Source: Reticulascus tulasneorum (Eukaryota > Ascomycota > Sordariomycetes > Glomerellales > Reticulascaceae). Taken from it: 64,000 nt of DNA. Below, piece after piece: positions 32,103 through 51,286 of this stretch (the first letter of the stretch is position 1; the number at the start of each line of letters is the position of its first letter). The stretch lies in the NCBI GenBank assembly GCA_001557505.1, contig LSAX01000003.1, forward strand, positions 310,001 to 374,000, written 5' to 3'. Under the pieces are notes generated by a model that was not told where the DNA came from, ran no database searches, and saw only the letters and a program-made list of their open reading frames with translations. A program made the translations under genes and the position numbers.

Positions 32103-32672
32103 ATGGCCGACAGACAGAGGTCAAGATCAAGATCCCCACGACGGGATCGTGACAGAACCCGAGACCGACCACGAGAGCGCCGACAAGGCGGCTTCAAATG
32201 GAAAGACAACAGTCGACGGGACGATGGTCGTGATGATCGCGATTCTCGCAGAGGCGGTCTCGAGCGCGGCTACCGCAACCGCTCACGCTCGCCCCGCCGC
32301 GACAGAGACCGCGACCCTGATCCGAAAGAGAGCAAACCCGCTGCCAAGGACAAAGACAAAAATAAAGACAAAGACACGCCGAAGACAAGCAAGAAGGACC
32401 AGCCAAAGGCTCCAGCACCGAGCGGCGGAGGCGAGGAGATGATCATCGTCACGGTCAACGATCGGTTGGGCACGAAAGCGCAGATCCCCTGCTTTGCATC
32501 CGACAGGATCAAGGAGTTCAAGATACTGGTTGCCGCGAGGGTCGGCCGAGAACCACATGAGATCTTGCTGAAACGGCAGGGCGAGCGGCCATTCAAGGAC
32601 CAGTTGACGCTGGAAGATTATGGCGTATCGAATGGTGTGCAGATCGACCTTGAGGTGGACACGGGTGATTAA
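32103..32672 (+). CDS. hub1: RS-domain / Hub1 (UBL5) ubiquitin-like fusion
   Basis: Single exon, 189 aa. The C-terminal 75 residues (about 113-187) are a Hub1/UBL5 ubiquitin-like fold: VTVNDRLGTKAQIPC and FKDQLTLEDYGVSNGVQIDL follow the family pattern V-NDRLG-K-----C and FKD---L-DY----G--L-L. Hub1 binds spliceosomal proteins (Snu66, Prp38) non-covalently and tunes splice-site choice. The first 70 residues are an Arg/Ser- and Arg/Asp-rich domain with repeated RSRSPRRDRDR, followed by a Lys/Asp-rich linker. Canonical Hub1 is only about 73 aa with no such extension, and usually ends in a Tyr-Tyr pair that is replaced here by EVDTGD. Whether the extension is general in related fungi I cannot tell. 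It is convergent with the modular Cys/His gene. Confidence 0.85.
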   Translation: MADRQRSRSRSPRRDRDRTRDRPRERRQGGFKWKDNSRRDDGRDDRDSRRGGLERGYRNRSRSPRRDRDRDPDPKESKPAAKDKDKNKDKDTPKTSKKDQPKAPAPSGGGEEMIIVTVNDRLGTKAQIPCFASDRIKEFKILVAARVGREPHEILLKRQGERPFKDQLTLEDYGVSNGVQIDLEVDTGD

Positions 32673-33083: not shown

Positions 33084-34766
33084 TTACTGCGCTGCCATGC
33101 GTAGCCCATTCCCATTAACCATCCTAAGATCCCGAATCTTCTCTTCCTGCAGCCCACGAATCAGCTGCTCCTTCTCCCGCAGCTGCTTGTTCAGCTCGTC
33201 GGTCTGGCTCTTCGCCCGCGCCTTGGCTGCGTTCTCGATATAGAGCTTAATATCTGCAAGGCCGTTAGTTAGATATTCGCCCACACGATGCGAAACTGGC
33301 TTACGCTCGCCGCATTTTCCGTCCACGACGCCTTCTGATTTGCAATATATGATTGAGCAGTCGTCTGGCGAGGTTAGCGATATCCCAAGACAGGGTAAGT
33401 GGATGCTCACGATCTTCACAGTAGAGCTGCTCGTCTTCGACAGGGTTCTTGCATTGATGAACTCGGCAGGAGTCTAGATCTAATGAGTATCGGCCGTAAG
33501 AACGGATAGAGGGAGGGGCGCATACGTTGGGCACAGAGCCTTAAACGGACTTTTCGATCATACCATGCCTTCTGATGCTCGCATCCTCCCTGCTCGCAAC
33601 GATCTGTCGGTATTAGCTCATCGTACTCCAAGCATTGTATCGCGTGGTATGCCGTACGGTCATCACAGAACCTATTCCTCCCGGAGCTCTGGTCGCAGCC
33701 CCTGTCTAAGCATGTGTGTTTCACACAATGACACGAGTCCCTATCCCGAAGGCCACTACACTCCGGGGTGTCACAGGTTACATCTATCAGTCAAGTCAGA
33801 CACGGCCGCATTCGAGGAAATGGAAACAGACGAGCTTGGCAGTATTGCCGATATTCTTTTGTATTCGGGATCGGATGCTTCGGCTTGTCACAGTTTCTCA
33901 TCTCGCAGCGAAGATCTGGAATGGGGTCAGTGGCATGCCTGCTAGTCAAGATTGTCACTCACGAGCAGCACACAGCGTGGCTTTTTCAACCACAATTATC
34001 TGGCAGTTGCCCATTCGGCACTTGTCTGCGATGGAGGTTAGCATGCAATCGTGGACAGGACATTCGGGGACTTACGATCGGGGCAGTAGTGCCGCTGCTC
34101 GAGTCTGAGCTTCAAGCAACCTTCGATACGGCACCGATCTGTCCGTCCATTAGCCAGGCATCTAACCCTTAACAACGAGATAACTCACGGTTTTCACAAT
34201 GGTTCTGAAATGTTCCTTTGCCACCAACGCCCTGAGCTCTCACGTAAGGACAGTGCGTGCTTATACATTTATCTGGCAGGATGTTAGACGGGTCTAGGCC
34301 ACTGGTTTGCCGACTTACGCTCAGCGCAGAATTCCAGCCGCAGGTAGCGCGGCGTGGATTCAACGCTCGAATCCGGCTCCAAGCATTGAATCTTTCCGTT
34401 TGGACATCCCGGAATGGAGCATTGGGTGTCTGCCACCAGTTGAGCAAAAGCGCATCAATGATCGGTCAGGGGTACGTACGAAGCAGGCAAACGGAATCAT
34501 ATTCTGCCTTCTTATATGTGCAGCCTTCGAGTCGGAAGAAGTAGGTACACGTGTCTAGCAGCGGCGTGAGCAGGTCAGCCAAGCAGTGTGCAAAGGTTCT
34601 TACGTTTTTCGCAGTATCGCGAGTCAATTTTACCACCGCCACCATAGCTATTTCTCTCGCGCGAGTCTCTCCCTTCTCGCGGTCCCGCCGATCTGGCACC
34701 TTGCTGCCTCGAATCTCCGACCTTGCAAGTCACTTCATACTTGCATCCGGCGCTCTGGCACACCAT
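33084..34766 (-). CDS. Tandem Cys/His-module protein, one module per exon
   Basis: I do not recognise a named family. Twelve exons (minus): 34604-34766, 34480-34554, 34319-34429, 34189-34272, 34076-34138, 33963-34025, 33832-33915, 33658-33783, 33526-33603, 33411-33479, 33305-33364, 33084-33253. They splice to an unbroken 381-aa protein. Exons 1-11 encode twelve modules of the form C-x4-C-x(n)-C-x2-H (the second module has a longer first spacing; exon 8 carries two). Examples are RCRIEGC...YCPDH and KCRMGNC...LCAAH. Every one of the eleven introns (46-54 nt) is phase 1 and falls after the first base of the His codon that closes a module. Each module has the ligand set of a small CCCH zinc site. 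Exon 12 is a coiled coil (KSQTDELNKQLREKEQLIRG). There is no signal peptide or membrane segment. The acceptor of exon 10 has an in-frame alternative 6 nt downstream that would give a tighter H-S-C junction. Confidence 0.85.
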
Positions 34767-37792: not shown

Positions 37793-39954
37793 CTAGAATA
37801 GTGCATAATCTTCATCCTTGTTATCTATTTCAAATGAGGTTGGGGCCTTCACGAAGTCTAAACAAAGTCAGTTAGAAGCAACTCAGAGAGCAATTGAGCA
37901 AGGTAGACAGTTGAGAGGGAAAACGTACTCGCGTCGCCTACTAGTAAGCAGCCACCCTTCTGCCTCCGCAAGACGTAAGCATTTACCGCGCCGTATAAAT
38001 AGACTACGATGTCTCCCTCTCGCGCATCTTCGGGAAATAAGCCAACTTTTCCAGCGCATTGGCCAACGCGACGACCTACACCGTATCTACGCATACCCTT
38101 CTGGATTGAAGGGTTAGAGATCCGCCTCTCGATCCAGGTGTCTGGTGCAAGAAATGACCTGGAATAGGCGTGGTCGACTTGAGGCAGAGTTCCAAAGTTC
38201 CAGCCCTCTGTAGTAGAGTGCAGGTTTGACACCAGAAGCAGCTTCGCCATATGATTATTTTCTTCAGAGCCGAAGTCTGCCGACTGGCCCCCGAATTTGT
38301 AAATTCCGAGATTCGTTTCAGGCTTTGCCTGCCAGATTGTCGTTGCAAATTCCTTCCAGGCGCAAAACACTTGGTGCAGCTCATGGCTGGAATGCGTATT
38401 TTTGGCGATCTGGTCACTCAGTCGCTGGATATAACCGTATGTACGCCCTCTAACGGTAAGGACCTTACCACTTGGGTTAATTTGCCAGGAGGCAGGTGCG
38501 TGACCCAGCGGATGTATGGGAAAGATGGTCACACCTGTAGGGAATGGTTGAGCCTTCCAAGGATCAATAAGATTTGGCGCCCAGGATGGAAGGGAATGAA
38601 GCCTGTCTATGTTTTGAGCTGCACTGAGAATGTCGAGCTTCTGAGTCTTTGAGAATATGGTAGTCGCCGCCTTCAAAAAGACATCTCTGATAGGAAGTCG
38701 ATAACCTACAGGCAGCTCATAGACGTTCGGATCCGCCAAGCCAAGAACAGCGAAAACTTTGTCTCTCAGATCTTTGGCCTTGCAGGCTCGGGCGTGACAG
38801 AGAAGCTTGCAGAAATCAATATAGCTATCCCCTTTCTTTGACTCGGCCCTCAGCTCCAGGAGCCTTTCTGCTGTTCCGGCTTGTTTCGTCTGGATAGTTT
38901 TCAATCTGTGGGCCACTTCTTCCTGCTGTGTATCGACCCGAAGCTGCAATAAATTATCCTCCAAAGCTCGCTCGGCAGTTGTCAGCTCCTCTAGGGTGCA
39001 GCTTGCGCTTCCACAGAGGAAACTCAGGTCGTATGCAAGAGCAATTTCCTGGCGCACCCAAACACGATCCCACCATGCCCGCTGGAACAAAGATGAGACG
39101 CTCAACAAGTTTTTCAGCTTTGTTTCGTCCGAAAGGTCTGGGTATGCCGTCTTCGGGTGCGCTGGTCCACGCGGTGGCACATGAGCGAGCTTCTTGATTA
39201 GACTGATGGCCTCTGTACTGTCATCAAACTCGTCGCCAAGCCATACTCGGACTTTCATCGCGCTGCCGTAGATCCTGCGCATGAGGGCGACCTGTGAATT
39301 GCGCTCCTCGATGTCATCCTGGTTGATACAAATCGCATCGATCCACCAGTATGATGGCTGCTCCGAAGGTTTAATCTCATTCCGTAGCTGCTGGAGGGCA
39401 TGGTCTAGGTTTTCGGTTATTCGGAGAGGAGCGCCAGCGATCAATATTGAACTGGTTGGTCTGTTCGGATCAGGTTCGCCCCACGTGTAAGAGAGAGCCT
39501 TGTATTTATGGGTCGATCTGGAACTACCGAAAGAGAAGCCTCCTTGAACAAAAGACGGTACTGTGTTGCTTGCCAGGTCGTCTAGACTCACACGCAACAA
39601 ATCTCCTCGGATGGGACCTGTGGTTTGCGGACTTGGGGTGAGACTGAGGATTCGGATCTCACTTCTTGACGGATCCAGGGCGAGATACTGGTAGGATTCC
39701 TTAGAGACCAAGTCTGCTTCAGAAGATTCCCCACCCTGTGGCCGTTTCTGTGGAACTGAAGAAGTAGAGGCTTTGGCGAACGGATTGCCCAGATGGTTCC
39801 GTGTAGGTCGAAAGGAGTTGGTGAAAGGCGATGATGGCATTGCAAGCGATCCCTCAATCCGTTCAAGACGCTGCTCGATCGCTTCTAGTCGAGCTGTAAC
39901 GGGCTCGATCAGCTTGGCGAACGCCTGTATGTCAATCAAGGAACTCTGGGTCAT
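37793..39954 (-). CDS. HET-domain (heterokaryon incompatibility) protein
   Basis: Member of the fungal HET family, whose members trigger cell death on fusion of unlike strains or act in NLR-like immunity. Two exons (37929-39954 and 37793-37857, minus) give 696 aa. The 71-nt intron has a perfect donor GTACGT, branch CTAACTGAC and acceptor TAG; without splicing the frame would add a different short tail and stop at 37858. All three HET-domain blocks are present from about residue 150: KYKALSYTWGEP, SYWWIDAICINQDDIEERNS and AWWDRVWVRQEIAL. An N-terminal helix (residues 8-36, heptad-like) may mediate oligomerisation. The C-terminal part carries the usual GGCLLVGDA-type motif. I see no STAND or WD domain, so it is a stand-alone HET protein. 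Confidence 0.92.
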
Positions 39955-45399: not shown

Positions 45400-46516
45400 A
45401 TTCGGTCTTCGTTCAGATTCTTGTTGAGGATTCGAGTGGTCGTGGAAAAAGAATGAACTATGGTGGACTGACTGTCGATAAAACAAGACAATCAAGCAAC
45501 CTAATATATATAAATGTCGCCCCAAGCTCCAAATAGTGTCTGCCAAAGACGAACCAAAGAAATAAGATTAATGCCTATTCGAGGTAATGCTAGACTTGGC
45601 ATCTGTGTTTTGCATACTTGAATGCCACGGAAATAATATCAACTGCGTCCAATTCCTCGGCCACTTCCTGCAAGTTACCCAGCTACAGTGTCAAGTAAGC
45701 GCTAACCTGTTAATGGCTACCGCTCGATCTTGCGGGCCAGATCTTGCTATTAAGCATTAACTTAAACAGACTTGCAGCACAGATTCTCATGCAAATTGTG
45801 TTCTAGTATTTCTCGACCCCCTCCCTCCATGCCTAATCGGGAAGGATTGTTAGTGGAGTGGAGTAGTCTCATTGGCTCGTTGCTTTTCGCTATTTTAGCC
45901 GGGGAGAAGCAAATGCCTTTTTTTCTTGCGTTTCTTCCTGTGTTCTTGTGGAGGGCTTTGTGTAACGTAAGCCCGGTAGAACCGAGGGAGAGATGTGCTA
46001 CTACGTAGTGATGTAGGTAGCCGTATCCTAGAAAGGATAGCGCTTCTTAGCATTAACTCTTTCTTGTACGGATGGTTCAAGGCCCAATTTCATTCCAGGA
46101 GTTGATATATGAGCATAAGTAAGGAGGTAATGAGCTTACGGGGGCTTTAAAGGACGGTTATTGGTCACTTTGTGGCGCGGTCGTCAATCCAGACAACTTC
46201 AACAATGTCCTACGCTTCCATGTGTGTGAGATCTCTTATAATACCGCAAAAGGTAGTCTCATGTAACATTACAGCAAGCTTCGCCCGAAAGAGTGCATTT
46301 TCCCATGAAGAAAGCAACTAATTTACCTTACTCGGGAAATCGCGAGGCATGCCTGCCTTTGAAGAGTATACTTAAAGACACTCTGCTCATGTAAGTGTTG
46401 TGGTGATCCCCCTCTCGTCGTTCTACCGTCTTTGTAACATCCACTAGAGCGGCTCACCTGCTCCACCAACTTTCTTTACAGTTACCCCGGCACTCTTGGT
46501 GCTTCGCCAGTATAAG
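45400..46516. promoter_or_regulatory. Divergent promoter region, secreted protein / chitinase
   Basis: 1.1 kb between the two start codons. It contains the TATA-like box at 45505-45514. No other gene is seen. Confidence 0.45.
45505..45514 (-). promoter_or_regulatory. TATA-like box of the secreted-protein gene
   Basis: TTTATATATA on the minus strand, 106 bp before the ATG at 45399. Confidence 0.5.
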
Positions 46517-49500
46517 ATGAAGCGCAATGTTACCTTTATCACCCTACTATGTCCAGTAGTTTCTGTTTCGGGATACTCTGTTCCCATCGATCCATCCCCA
46601 GCACATACCGAGCTACATGAAGAATCCGGGCCAGAGATACACGGAAGATCGACAACGCGCTCTGTTCGGCTGCAGTCTCGCAATGTGTGTCAAGCTATTA
46701 CAGTGGTTGCGGACGACGGTTGCTGGTCTCTTTCTCAGCGCTGTGGCATATCGCAGGCTGATCTGTCAGGCTTTAATCCTGCAGCCGATTTCTGCGAGAG
46801 TCTCAAATTAGGACAGCTGGTATGTTGCACATCGGGCGACCTACCGGACCTCTCGCCAACACCCAGTCAAGACGGAACTTGTGCCACCTATACAATCATA
46901 CCTGACGATATCTGCTTCTCGATTGCAGACAAGCATCATCTCACGGTCGAAAAGTTGAACGACTTCAACCTAAATACTTGGGGCTGGGCCGGCTGCTCCT
47001 CAATCCAACCTGGTCAAAGAATATGCGTGAGCAAAGGCGACCCTCCCATGCCTGCATATCTCAGCAACGCAGTGTGTGGACCGCAGGTTCCTGGGACGCA
47101 ACGACCTACTGATGGTACTAGAATTGAGGATATGAATCCTTGTCCGCTTAATGCGTGCTGTAACGTATGGGGGCAGTGCGGCATAACTGAGGGCTTCTGT
47201 ATCAAAAGCCCAGCAGACACAGGTGCCCCAGGTACATCGCAACCGGGAGCTAATGGGTGCGTTTCCAACTGTGGCATGGATATTGTCAACAGAGATGAAG
47301 TCCCTGAATCGTTCGCTCGTGTGGCATACTTTGAATCTTGGAATCAGGATCGGCCGTGCCTTCGCATGGATGTTACGGAAATAGACACCGAATATTATAC
47401 GCATATACACTTTGCATTCGGAGACATTACGCCAAATTTCGAAGTCAACGTTTCTCGAGTTGAGCAACAGTTTGAAAAGATGAAGGGAATGAGTGGTATC
47501 AAGAGGATTTTATCCTTCGGTGGTTGGGCCTTTTCGACTGAAGCACCGACTTATACTATCTTCCGACAAGGAGTTACAGCAGCCCACAGGGAAACACTTG
47601 CAAATAATATTGTTGGGTTTATCGAAACTCACGGCTTAGATGGCGTCGACTTTGACTGGGAGTACCCATCTGCGCCAGACATGCCAGGGATTCCTGCCGG
47701 GATCCTTCAGGAAGGGAAAGATTACCTGGAGTTTCTGAGGACTGTTAAAGGTCGCCTGCCGGAAAAATCAGTATCAATTGCTGCCCCTGCATCTTACTGG
47801 TATTTGAAAGGCTTCCCAATCAAAGAAATTGGAGACACAGTCGACTACATCATTTATATGACATACGACCTGCACGGACAATGGGATTATGGCAATAAAT
47901 GGACCAGTCCTGGCTGCGAGAACGGCAACTGCCTCCGGTCTCATGTTAATCAAACAGAGACAAACAATGCCCTGGTTATGATAACTAAGGCGGGCGTACA
48001 AGCTAAGAAAATATTTGTTGGCTTGGCTAGTTATGGAAGGACCTTCAAGATGGCCGAGGAGGGTTGTACAAACGAAATGTGCTTGTTCGAGGGTTCAGCA
48101 ACGGAATCACCGGCAGAGCCGGGCAGCTGCACAGCGACTGCGGGGTATCTTGCAATGAGCGAGATCCGGAGTCTCATAGAGGCAGGGCAGGACGAAGAGA
48201 CAGCATTTACGCTTGATTTCAATTATTATGATGATTTCGCCAAGTCGAATGTGTTGGTCTACAATAAGTACCAATGGGTGTCTTATATGGACGATCAGAC
48301 TAAAGAGATGCGTTATGATTGGATCCGAGGCATGAACTTCGGTGGGATATCAGACTGGGCTGTTGACTTGGATCAGGGTCGGGGCAAGTCTGAGCCACTG
48401 CCAAGTTGTGATCGAGAACTTGAGTTCAATACGCTAGAGGCTCTGGAAGCAGCGATGAATACCTTCCATTCTGTCTGCAAAGGCCGTTACGTCGTCAAAG
48501 TTCTTTCTAAGATGCTAGATACTTCTCTGGCCAAATACGACATAGTAAATCGGGGCTACGACAGCAAGTTTAAGTCTTGTGAAAAATATCTCAAAGCGGC
48601 ATTGCCTGTAGCACTTGCCGATTTCATGAACTTTAGGGATGGAGAAGGGCAGAAATATTTCTCGTGCAAGTTCCACACGGGGGACCGCAAGTACGATGGA
48701 CCCTGCCCTGTCCCGAAGTCCACCTACAACCAGCAACTTAGTATTGGCGTCTGGGAGGTGAAATACACCCTCACCGACGAGAAGGGTTTCTACGATGCGA
48801 TCGAGCAAAAACTTGGCATCTCGAAGGACTGGGTCAAGTTTGGAAAAACCGAGGAGGAGGTTCGCTGCGAGTTCGTGCAGCAAGGGGTGTGTCCCAGCTG
48901 GATTTTCACGCAGTCCAATGTCCCCCTGATCAACTCCGCTTTTCAGGTTCCAAATCCGAAGAAGATCATTCAGCAGGCTCAAAACGGCACTAACAAGGTG
49001 GTCACAGATATGGCTGTCGCTGTGTGGGAAACAGAGACTTCTTCATGGGTTGGGGATTCCGAAGAACTCGCAGAAGTGTTATCGGTGCCCGTGTTTCTTA
49101 TTTCGCAAGCCGTCGAATCCATGGAAGATGCGAAGGAGATAGCAGAGGATTACGAAGAGGAGCAGAAGAAGAATCTCATTCTCACGATTGTTAGTGCATT
49201 ACTAATGATCGTTCCATTTATTGGAGAAATTGCGGCTGCGGCTGCAGGAATGGCAACTTTGGCGCGCATCGTGGCAATGATTGGCTATGCTGGTGAAGTA
49301 GGTTTGAGCATTCTTGAAATCATCGATGATCCAGCATCGGCACCTATGGCGATTATTGGTGCCTTGATGATGGACCGGTTTCGGAGCCCGAAGGCTGTCA
49401 GCGATGCTGCTACGCTAAAGCGAGCTATGAATGCAAAGGATATTTTGAAGTTGGGAAAGCAGTTCAAGAAAAATGACGACACATTGAGAAGAATCATTCC

Positions 49501-49522
49501 ACTAAACTCATGCTCGCGGTAA
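46517..49522 (+). CDS. Killer-toxin-like LysM/CBM18/GH18 chitinase (subgroup C)
   Basis: 1001 aa from the ATG at 46517; the open frame begins 21 nt earlier at a TTG. Domains in order: signal peptide (residues 1-20); LysM about 57-103 and about 121-170; CBM18-like chitin-binding module about 186-230 (NPCPLNACCNVWGQCG); GH18 catalytic domain about 267-620 with DGVDFDWEYP and catalytic Glu about 382, plus FGGW and YDLHGQW landmarks; and a C-terminal region of about 380 aa. That region holds a hydrophobic segment (about 886-936), much as the alpha/beta precursor of yeast zymocin pairs chitinase and a hydrophobic part. Subgroup C chitinases bind and cut chitin in other fungi's or their own walls, in antagonism or remodelling. 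A donor-like GTAAGT overlaps the stop codon, so a short extra exon cannot be excluded. Confidence 0.95.
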   Translation: MKRNVTFITLLCPVVSVSGYSVPIDPSPAHTELHEESGPEIHGRSTTRSVRLQSRNVCQAITVVADDGCWSLSQRCGISQADLSGFNPAADFCESLKLGQLVCCTSGDLPDLSPTPSQDGTCATYTIIPDDICFSIADKHHLTVEKLNDFNLNTWGWAGCSSIQPGQRICVSKGDPPMPAYLSNAVCGPQVPGTQRPTDGTRIEDMNPCPLNACCNVWGQCGITEGFCIKSPADTGAPGTSQPGANGCVSNCGMDIVNRDEVPESFARVAYFESWNQDRPCLRMDVTEIDTEYYTHIHFAFGDITPNFEVNVSRVEQQFEKMKGMSGIKRILSFGGWAFSTEAPTYTIFRQGVTAAHRETLANNIVGFIETHGLDGVDFDWEYPSAPDMPGIPAGILQEGKDYLEFLRTVKGRLPEKSVSIAAPASYWYLKGFPIKEIGDTVDYIIYMTYDLHGQWDYGNKWTSPGCENGNCLRSHVNQTETNNALVMITKAGVQAKKIFVGLASYGRTFKMAEEGCTNEMCLFEGSATESPAEPGSCTATAGYLAMSEIRSLIEAGQDEETAFTLDFNYYDDFAKSNVLVYNKYQWVSYMDDQTKEMRYDWIRGMNFGGISDWAVDLDQGRGKSEPLPSCDRELEFNTLEALEAAMNTFHSVCKGRYVVKVLSKMLDTSLAKYDIVNRGYDSKFKSCEKYLKAALPVALADFMNFRDGEGQKYFSCKFHTGDRKYDGPCPVPKSTYNQQLSIGVWEVKYTLTDEKGFYDAIEQKLGISKDWVKFGKTEEEVRCEFVQQGVCPSWIFTQSNVPLINSAFQVPNPKKIIQQAQNGTNKVVTDMAVAVWETETSSWVGDSEELAEVLSVPVFLISQAVESMEDAKEIAEDYEEEQKKNLILTIVSALLMIVPFIGEIAAAAAGMATLARIVAMIGYAGEVGLSILEIIDDPASAPMAIIGALMMDRFRSPKAVSDAATLKRAMNAKDILKLGKQFKKNDDTLRRIIPLNSCSR

Positions 49523-50500: not shown

Positions 50501-51286
50501 ATGGGCCTCACGGACGAAGCCGTCACAGTCAGGGGCGGGTGCAACTGTGGCGCCATCCGGTACCGTATCTCCGTCCCGGCCAAAGCGGATCGTCCTCCGA
50601 ACTTCTCCTTAGGCCCGAACCCGGACCTCAATGACCCGGACACGCCTCGAGTTCCGAGCGTCGTGACATGTCACTGCAATGACTGTCGCTCAGCATCTGG
50701 CCATTTACCCTTTCAGGCATTTCTCTGCGCAGCTCCTATGGTCACCGTGTCGGCCCTTCCTCGCGACGACGCAGAAGAGGCAACCCGAGCCATAACGGGG
50801 CGAATCATCGAGCGCCTCAATCCCGGCCAAAGCGCAGAGGAGAGCGACGCCAAACGGCCGCCGTACCTCCCTGGCGTGGATGTCCTACGACCCGATTTAC
50901 CAGGGTCTAGGGATACCTGGCTGCGCTTCTTCCACACTAAGATCTGCAATGCGGAGTATTTCTCGCGCAGTTTTTGCGGACGGTGCGGTACTCCTGTTGC
51001 ATATCACTGGAAGATCATGCCGGAGTTCATGGGTCCGACTTTTGTGAAGCCAGACGGGTGGGAAGATGTCATTGATATCGTGCTAGGCACGATCGACAAA
51101 GAAAATCTAGAGCAGCCCTGGATGGAGATTGAGCGGGAGCTTAACTTTGATATTGCTCTTCCATGGGTTAAGCAGAAGTCCCTGAACGGATTGGCCGGAC
51201 CGAAACACCCTGGCGGCTCGTTGCACGAGCTTGTGCCTGACATTGACTTGAAGCGAGCGGCCGACGTATGGAGAACCGTCGTCTGA
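50501..51286 (+). CDS. GFA/CENP-V family zinc protein
   Basis: Single exon, 261 aa. It belongs to the glutathione-dependent formaldehyde-activating (GFA)/CENP-V family, with the expected cysteine ligands: GGCNCGAIRY near residues 12-21, CHCNDCRSASG and FCGRCGTPVAYHW. The family binds two zinc ions. Proven enzymes form S-hydroxymethyl-glutathione adducts, but most fungal members have no defined substrate. Two inserts (roughly residues 27-50 and 80-130) make it longer than bacterial Gfa (about 190 aa). There is no signal peptide, so it is cytosolic. The ATG is preceded by CGAG. Confidence 0.9.
   Translation: MGLTDEAVTVRGGCNCGAIRYRISVPAKADRPPNFSLGPNPDLNDPDTPRVPSVVTCHCNDCRSASGHLPFQAFLCAAPMVTVSALPRDDAEEATRAITGRIIERLNPGQSAEESDAKRPPYLPGVDVLRPDLPGSRDTWLRFFHTKICNAEYFSRSFCGRCGTPVAYHWKIMPEFMGPTFVKPDGWEDVIDIVLGTIDKENLEQPWMEIERELNFDIALPWVKQKSLNGLAGPKHPGGSLHELVPDIDLKRAADVWRTVV

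Follow-up and report, generated by a model that had tools for sequence, protein, structure and literature searches.

The window, i.e., the whole stretch of 64,000 nucleotides of Reticulascus tulasneorum DNA that was analysed, contains on its minus strand (34766-33084) a single gene of 12 exons that encodes a protein of 379 aa. The reading frame starts with an ATG at 34766, ends with a stop at 33084 and covers 1140 nt including the stop, with no internal stops. The encoded protein consists of twelve Cys3His modules, each closing with C-x2-H, followed by a charged C-terminus. Twelve C-x4-C...C-x2-H modules were described in the initial annotation; the number stands, and the C-x4-C opening is found in 11 of them, the exception being module 2 with C-x8-C. 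The gene and its exons are listed below (exons 1 to 11 are based on the gene model and the module spacing).

33084..34766 (-): complete gene with its 12 exons, encoding twelve modules and a charged C-terminal region in 379 aa (gene model; homologues P0001 and P0002)
34604..34766 (-): exon 1, module 1 (C-x4-C-x43-C-x2-H) with an Arg/Ser/Gly-rich insert
34480..34554 (-): exon 2, module 2 (C-x8-C-x10-C-x2-H)
34319..34429 (-): exon 3, module 3
34189..34272 (-): exon 4, module 4
34076..34138 (-): exon 5, module 5
33963..34025 (-): exon 6, module 6
33832..33915 (-): exon 7, module 7
33658..33783 (-): exon 8, modules 8 and 9, His237 codon uncut
33526..33603 (-): exon 9, module 10
33411..33473 (-): exon 10, module 11
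33305..33364 (-): exon 11, module 12
33084..33253 (-): exon 12, charged C-terminal region, putative helix or coiled coil by homology to P0001 (gene model, alignment, P0001 model)

Exons 2 to 11 measure 75, 111, 84, 63, 63, 84, 126, 78, 63, and 60 nt, all divisible by three. Exon 8 carries two modules, and the boundary between modules 8 and 9 is the sole one without an intron, as had been read from the letters before. The loop between Cys 2 and Cys 3 ranges from 9 to 43 residues, and the linker between a closing His and the next Cys is 1-2 residues long (0-4 in the paralogues described below). The fourth ligand position is His in all twelve modules.

The eleven introns are all of the GT..AG type and in phase 1, with lengths of 46, 46, 47, 48, 49, 50, 50, 50, 51, 52, and 54 nt. 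Each of them cuts the codon of a closing His after its first base, so that C and AC or AT are joined to His (11/11). The positions are given below (evidence in each case: gene model, slot count, splice-only program).

34555..34603 (-): intron 1 (49 nt), within the His55 codon
34430..34479 (-): intron 2 (50 nt), within the His80 codon
34273..34318 (-): intron 3 (46 nt), within the His117 codon
34139..34188 (-): intron 4 (50 nt), within the His145 codon
34026..34075 (-): intron 5 (50 nt), within the His166 codon
33916..33962 (-): intron 6 (47 nt), within the His187 codon
33784..33831 (-): intron 7 (48 nt), within the His215 codon
33604..33657 (-): intron 8 (54 nt), within the His257 codon, without in-frame stop; missed at penalty 10
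33474..33525 (-): intron 9 (52 nt, or 46 nt if the upstream acceptor is used), within the His283 codon; missed at penalty 10
33365..33410 (-): intron 10 (46 nt), within the His304 codon; penalty 10 shifted the donor
33254..33304 (-): intron 11 (51 nt), within the His324 codon, without in-frame stop; penalty 10 shifted the donor

The splice-only program is a dynamic program that was given the start, the stop, an intron length of 42-75, and generic splice-site weights (the analyst's own typical values), with no rule on His codons. At penalty 8, it returned all 11 introns exactly and no extra ones. At penalty 6, it again returned 11/11, together with one extra intron (33157-33092), and at penalty 10, it returned 7/11 plus two others. 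The eleven phase-1 introns of 46-54 nt that split CAY His codons, first noticed in the initial annotation, are thus borne out by both the gene model and the program. The chance of 11 random slots all falling on such sites is about 1e-24, an estimate based on 13 CxxH sites that include one non-closing site. The coincidence of introns and closing His codons is not due to chance. Read-through of an intron would turn the ligand into Arg in 11/11 cases, with a stop inside the intron following in 7/11. A YTRAY branch-point-like motif is present in 10 introns and absent from intron 9. The latter ends in tandem acceptors, TAGATCTAG (33474-33482, minus strand), six bases apart. Either acceptor preserves the frame and the His codon, and the products differ by two residues; the longer choice agrees with the homologue P0001.

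A search of the genome (42.8 Mb, 35 contigs) revealed three paralogous loci on two contigs, L016 and L017 on the contig of the window and L018 on contig 3. In the exon-by-exon search with the window protein, they were found at E-values of 1e-7 (L016), 0.001 (L017), and 0.02 (L018). Once spliced, their proteins match the window protein by blastp at E <= 6e-13 and each other at E <= 2e-17, and the values among all four family proteins extend from 6e-13 to 2e-37. The models contain 17 modules and 3 introns for L016, 14 modules and 5 introns for L017, and 13 modules and 3 introns for L018. All 11 modelled introns of the paralogues are in phase 1 within a closing His codon. They lie after modules 1, 2, and 6 in L018, after modules 1, 2, 3, 7, and 9 in L017, and after modules 2, 3, and 12 in L016, a placement biased towards the 5' side (p = 0.0003 against random placement). 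In the four genes together, 22/22 modelled introns cut a closing His codon after the first base; introns occur at 22 of 56 closing His codons and at none of 38 other His codons (p = 1.4e-6). The splice-only program with penalties 6 and 8 reproduced exactly 3/3 introns in L018, 3/5 in L017, and 2/3 in L016. For L017, it chose a different acceptor at intron 1 and replaced intron 2 by a different intron. For L016, one intron received a different acceptor, and no path was obtained at penalty 10. The three disputed introns of L016 and L017 were chosen by the module pattern and, for L017, also by the Colletotrichum relatives, and they are therefore less independent. A weak L016 match (E = 4.8e-4) was also seen at L034, 2978-3745 on the minus strand, where an open frame without introns encodes a few widely spaced C-x4-C...C-x2-H modules.

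Relatives were found by searches of a protein collection. The window protein alone retrieved one relative, P0001, a protein of 427 aa with 50% identity over 97%. As the source contig of P0001 is only 1485 nt long, its frame has no intron, and the record likely originates from a spliced transcript. A profile of the window protein and P0001 added P0002, the hypothetical protein V8F33_001374 of Rhypophila sp. A six-sequence profile that included the paralogues added P0003-P0010, comprising seven Colletotrichum proteins recorded as hypothetical or uncharacterized and one unnamed protein. Profile E-values are 3e-142 for P0002, itself a member of the profile, and 2e-66 to 2e-32 for P0003-P0009. By blastp, P0002 is nearest to the window protein (39%), and P0003-P0009 are nearest to the paralogue L017 (41-60% identity). 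P0001-P0009 are thus tied to the family by a significant sequence match and a conserved Cys pattern. Rhypophila belongs to the Sordariales and Colletotrichum to the Glomerellales, both within the Sordariomycetes. Because the protein searches depend on shared short words, the family may be spread more widely. P0010 (477 aa, unnamed source) is more distant than the other relatives and has about 16 related modules by a rough pattern.

P0001 and P0002 align without a break across all 11 junctions and carry the same 12 modules in the same order as the window protein, including the C-x8-C of module 2. At the last (11th) junction, i.e., the last closing His, P0002 has Asp instead of His. Modules 2-12 of the window protein find their best match at the same index in 11/11 cases in P0001 and in 10/11 in P0002, and in only 5/11 when P0001 and P0002 are compared with each other. 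In alignment A2, which as a repeat alignment is prone to sliding, 32 of the 33 Cys of modules 2-12 occupy invariant columns (the exception is C88), and the closing His of modules 3, 11, and 12 lie outside such columns. P0002 has a long Gly-rich and acidic tail, and its alignment leaves a gap across much of the region predicted to be helical in P0001. These comparisons establish a real, conserved gene from an uncharacterised fungal Cys/His-array family. A second module of the C-x8-C type is also common to L016, L017, L018, P0003, and the window gene. A C-terminal DSG..GSPSVSD motif occurs in L017, P0003, and P0004; P0005 and P0006 carry variants of it.

The intron position seems to recur in another genus. 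P0005, P0006, and P0007 have extra residues directly before an Asp-Thr-Cys that follows module 3, at a site where P0003, P0004, P0008, and P0009 have His-Thr-Cys. In P0009 itself, the sequence continues at the closing His of module 7 with Arg-Glu-Leu and a low-complexity stretch. By eye, the four proteins appear to have retained an intron at closing-His positions that correspond to those after modules 3 and 7 of L017. Retention of an intron at this point of the codon would produce G|AC, which reads as Asp.

How did one module per exon arise? Tandem exon duplication was put forward in the initial annotation. The correspondence of modules and exons, the symmetric 1-1 phase, and the 11 introns of the three paralogues speak for it, while the modules are too diverged to leave a trace in the sequence itself. 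Mean identity between modules of the window protein, with Cys and His left out, is only 0.18, so that the case for duplication rests on shape and intron position rather than on residual similarity. The same value of 0.18 is obtained between modules of different index in the window protein and P0001. Since the same 12 modules stand in order in P0001 and P0002, the duplications must be old. A comparison module by module revealed no correspondence in order between the window protein and the paralogues, and orthology of the introns cannot be claimed position by position. With an intron site common to four genes and probably to another genus, the simplest account is nevertheless a phase-1 module-exon that multiplied, followed by intron loss, and the modules probably multiplied as exons. 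The ancestor would have been a one-module exon flanked on both sides by phase-1 introns and duplicated in tandem. The window gene would have retained nearly all introns, and most paralogue introns would have disappeared from the 3' side, the pattern predicted for loss mediated by a reverse transcript. Overall, with moderate confidence, we regard the gene as a member of an unnamed ascomycete tandem-Cys3His family whose module exons were duplicated before introns were lost, and whose products would act as intracellular zinc-bead scaffolds or adaptors.

Alternatively, the introns might be younger than the array. An intronless array could have been invaded repeatedly at TGY-N6-C|AY, and one module per exon would then result from site-specific insertion. 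The Cys-x2-His-x-Cys context indeed offers a recurring target, the exons of the paralogues hold many modules, and the divergence of the window modules is too great for a duplication to be traced in the sequence. The lack of introns at the 38 non-closing His codons speaks only against insertion at any CAY. Nonetheless, the flank C|A differs from AG|G, the usual protosplice site, and the 5' bias of the paralogue introns fits loss. Moreover, the repeat search found no common intron body: D1, the sole three-copy repeat, crosses from exon into donor at introns 3, 5, and 11, and D3 lies across the acceptor junctions at introns 4 and 8. We consider insertion unlikely. The family allows exon duplication and intron insertion to be tested directly against each other. 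In the duplication reading, the closing-His introns mark the history of the modules where sequence similarity has faded.

As every donor provides C and every acceptor AY, joining a donor to whichever acceptor lies downstream would yield His, an intact frame, and complete modules, so that the gain, loss, or skipping of an exon would leave the other fingers unaffected. A bolder reading takes the closing-His codon as a universal splice junction, with alternative splicing producing a ladder of strings of different module number and the family evolving by the same freedom in DNA; we give it little credence. That the 1-1 phase permits gain and loss of modules was also proposed at the outset. The phase is symmetric and the counts do vary among the four genes (12, 13, 14, and 17), while the count of the window gene is steady: it looks fixed at 12 in all three likely orthologues, with no sign of recent change. 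Symmetric exons with one module each are familiar from animals. To our knowledge, they are seldom reported for filamentous fungi, whose genes have few, short introns. The window gene shares one module per symmetric phase-1 exon with the extracellular modular exons of animals (EGF-like and others). In contrast to these, it is fungal, has no secretion signal by eye, and carries the intron inside a presumed metal-ligand codon.

No named family was known to the initial annotation, and none was found by Pfam at cut-off in the window protein, in P0001-P0010, or in the 48 of 56 modules scanned; the module itself, however, is of a known sort, the small C-x4-C...C-x2-H finger. Weak matches of single modules were obtained with Zf_WRKY19, zf-TRM13_CCCH, zf-CGNR, WRC, zf-C3Hc3H, EsV_1_7_cys, and CxC6, which are small Cys/His motifs, and with four other families. 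Among the 11 window modules scanned, the one match was to CxC6 (14.6 bits against a cut-off of 27.5 bits). The ligand spacing of tandem CCCH fingers, C-x8-C-x5-C-x3-H, does not fit: 12/12 window modules close with C-x2-H, and only module 2 opens with C-x8-C, with a loop of 10.

A weak resemblance is seen to the EsV-1-7 and WRKY19-type fingers. The modules could be a diverged form of one of these finger types, which are known outside fungi, with altered spacing. The ligand order C-x4-C...C-x2-H is identical, and a few modules gave weak matches. Zf_WRKY19 (PF24906) matched 3/48 modules at 14.1-18.5 bits, all in L016 and L017 (best match an L016 module, 18.5 bits, E = 0.0018), and EsV_1_7_cys matched 1/48, a module of L017 (14.6 bits, E = 0.031). 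All these values are below the curated cut-offs of 27 and 25 bits, respectively, and none comes from a window module, a Zf_WRKY19 score of 9.5 bits being reached with a piece of the window. In the genome search, Zf_WRKY19 gave four matches, all below cut-off, one of them in L016 (16.7 bits), and EsV-1-7 gave three weak matches below cut-off, none at the four family genes. EsV-1-7 (PF19114) is not listed for the window protein or P0001-P0010. PF19114 is the EsV-1-7 cysteine-rich motif, known from IMMEDIATE UPRIGHT of Ectocarpus and from giant viruses. Its spacing is C-x4-C-x16-C-x2-H-x12; the window modules agree in C-x4-C (11/12) and C-x2-H (12/12) and differ in their loops of 9-43 and linkers of 1-2, where EsV-1-7 has a fixed 16 and 12.

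No PDB chain matched at E 0.001. Foldseek with the AlphaFold2 model of P0003 against viral predicted structures (BFVD) gave 27 matches at E <= 10, six of them at 0.001. Four of the six are uncharacterised proteins of Tetraselmis virus 1, Barrevirus, Edafosvirus, and Hyperionvirus; the remaining two are a Faunusvirus protein named endonuclease and the endonuclease VII of a Gordonia phage. EsV-1-7 itself ranks eighth (E = 1.5e-3), a match that favours kinship, with a probability of 0.28 and TM-scores of 0.10/0.12 that speak against it. TM-scores of the viral matches are 0.04-0.18 by query length, which is low, as expected for strings, so the viral likeness is local only. Membership in the EsV-1-7 or WRKY19-type fingers seems doubtful; being a matter of family membership, it is compatible with the intron history above, and the likelihoods of the readings need not add up to one. 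The family may work like these fingers and is no member by the tests made. It represents an uncharacterised Cys/His-array class with a distant local structural likeness to EsV-1-7 and other viral proteins, distinguished from EsV-1-7 also by its fungal occurrence and its intron rule. Passages of three papers describe the function of the EsV-1-7 motif protein as unknown, perhaps that of an uncharacterised zinc finger (PMC7457493; PMC12993054; PMC12477816), and one of these passages calls the domain itself a possible uncharacterised zinc finger (PMC12477816). According to a passage of another, the domain is patchily distributed across eukaryotes and present in several viral genomes (PMC7457493).

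Judging from the residues, each module would bind one zinc through three Cys and one His. Our best guess for the protein, a tentative one, is an intracellular multivalent zinc-bead scaffold or an adaptor for nucleic acids or proteins. The model of P0003, built from 10 sequences, suggests an array that forms a string without a fixed overall shape (331/471 residues at pLDDT 70-90, mostly in the array; pTM 0.39). Direct binding of DNA or RNA by the array is possible; with 62 K+R against 51 D+E, the protein is only mildly positive, which is weak support for it. The C-terminal coiled coil of the initial annotation is plausible, as the counterpart in P0001 is predicted to be one helix (residues 332-396), with the reservation that the P0001 model is otherwise poor and ten-residue blocks exceed pLDDT 70 only in this helix. 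Such a helix would join the string to itself or to partners. Many fungal Cys-rich proteins are secreted, and with 39 Cys among 379 residues, the modules might instead hold disulfides in a secreted protein. This is very improbable given the His at the fourth position of 12/12 window modules, an N-terminus (MVCQSAGCKYEV) without a hydrophobic signal stretch by eye, and a charged C-terminus that is predicted to be helical in P0001.

Other open frames are found in the window. The frame next to the gene, at 32103-32669 on the plus strand, begins with an Arg/Ser-rich part and ends in a ubiquitin-like one (19.7 bits with Pfam ubiquitin against a cut-off of 25.4 bits, E = 0.00075); it presumably resembles the splicing modifier Hub1/UBL5. 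At 37861-39954 on the minus strand, an open frame encodes a HET domain (E = 4.5e-31). On the plus strand, a frame of 1008 aa at 46496-49519 contains GH18 and LysM domains, with a chitin-binding match just under cut-off, and the frame at 50501-51283 contains a GFA domain (E = 1e-9).
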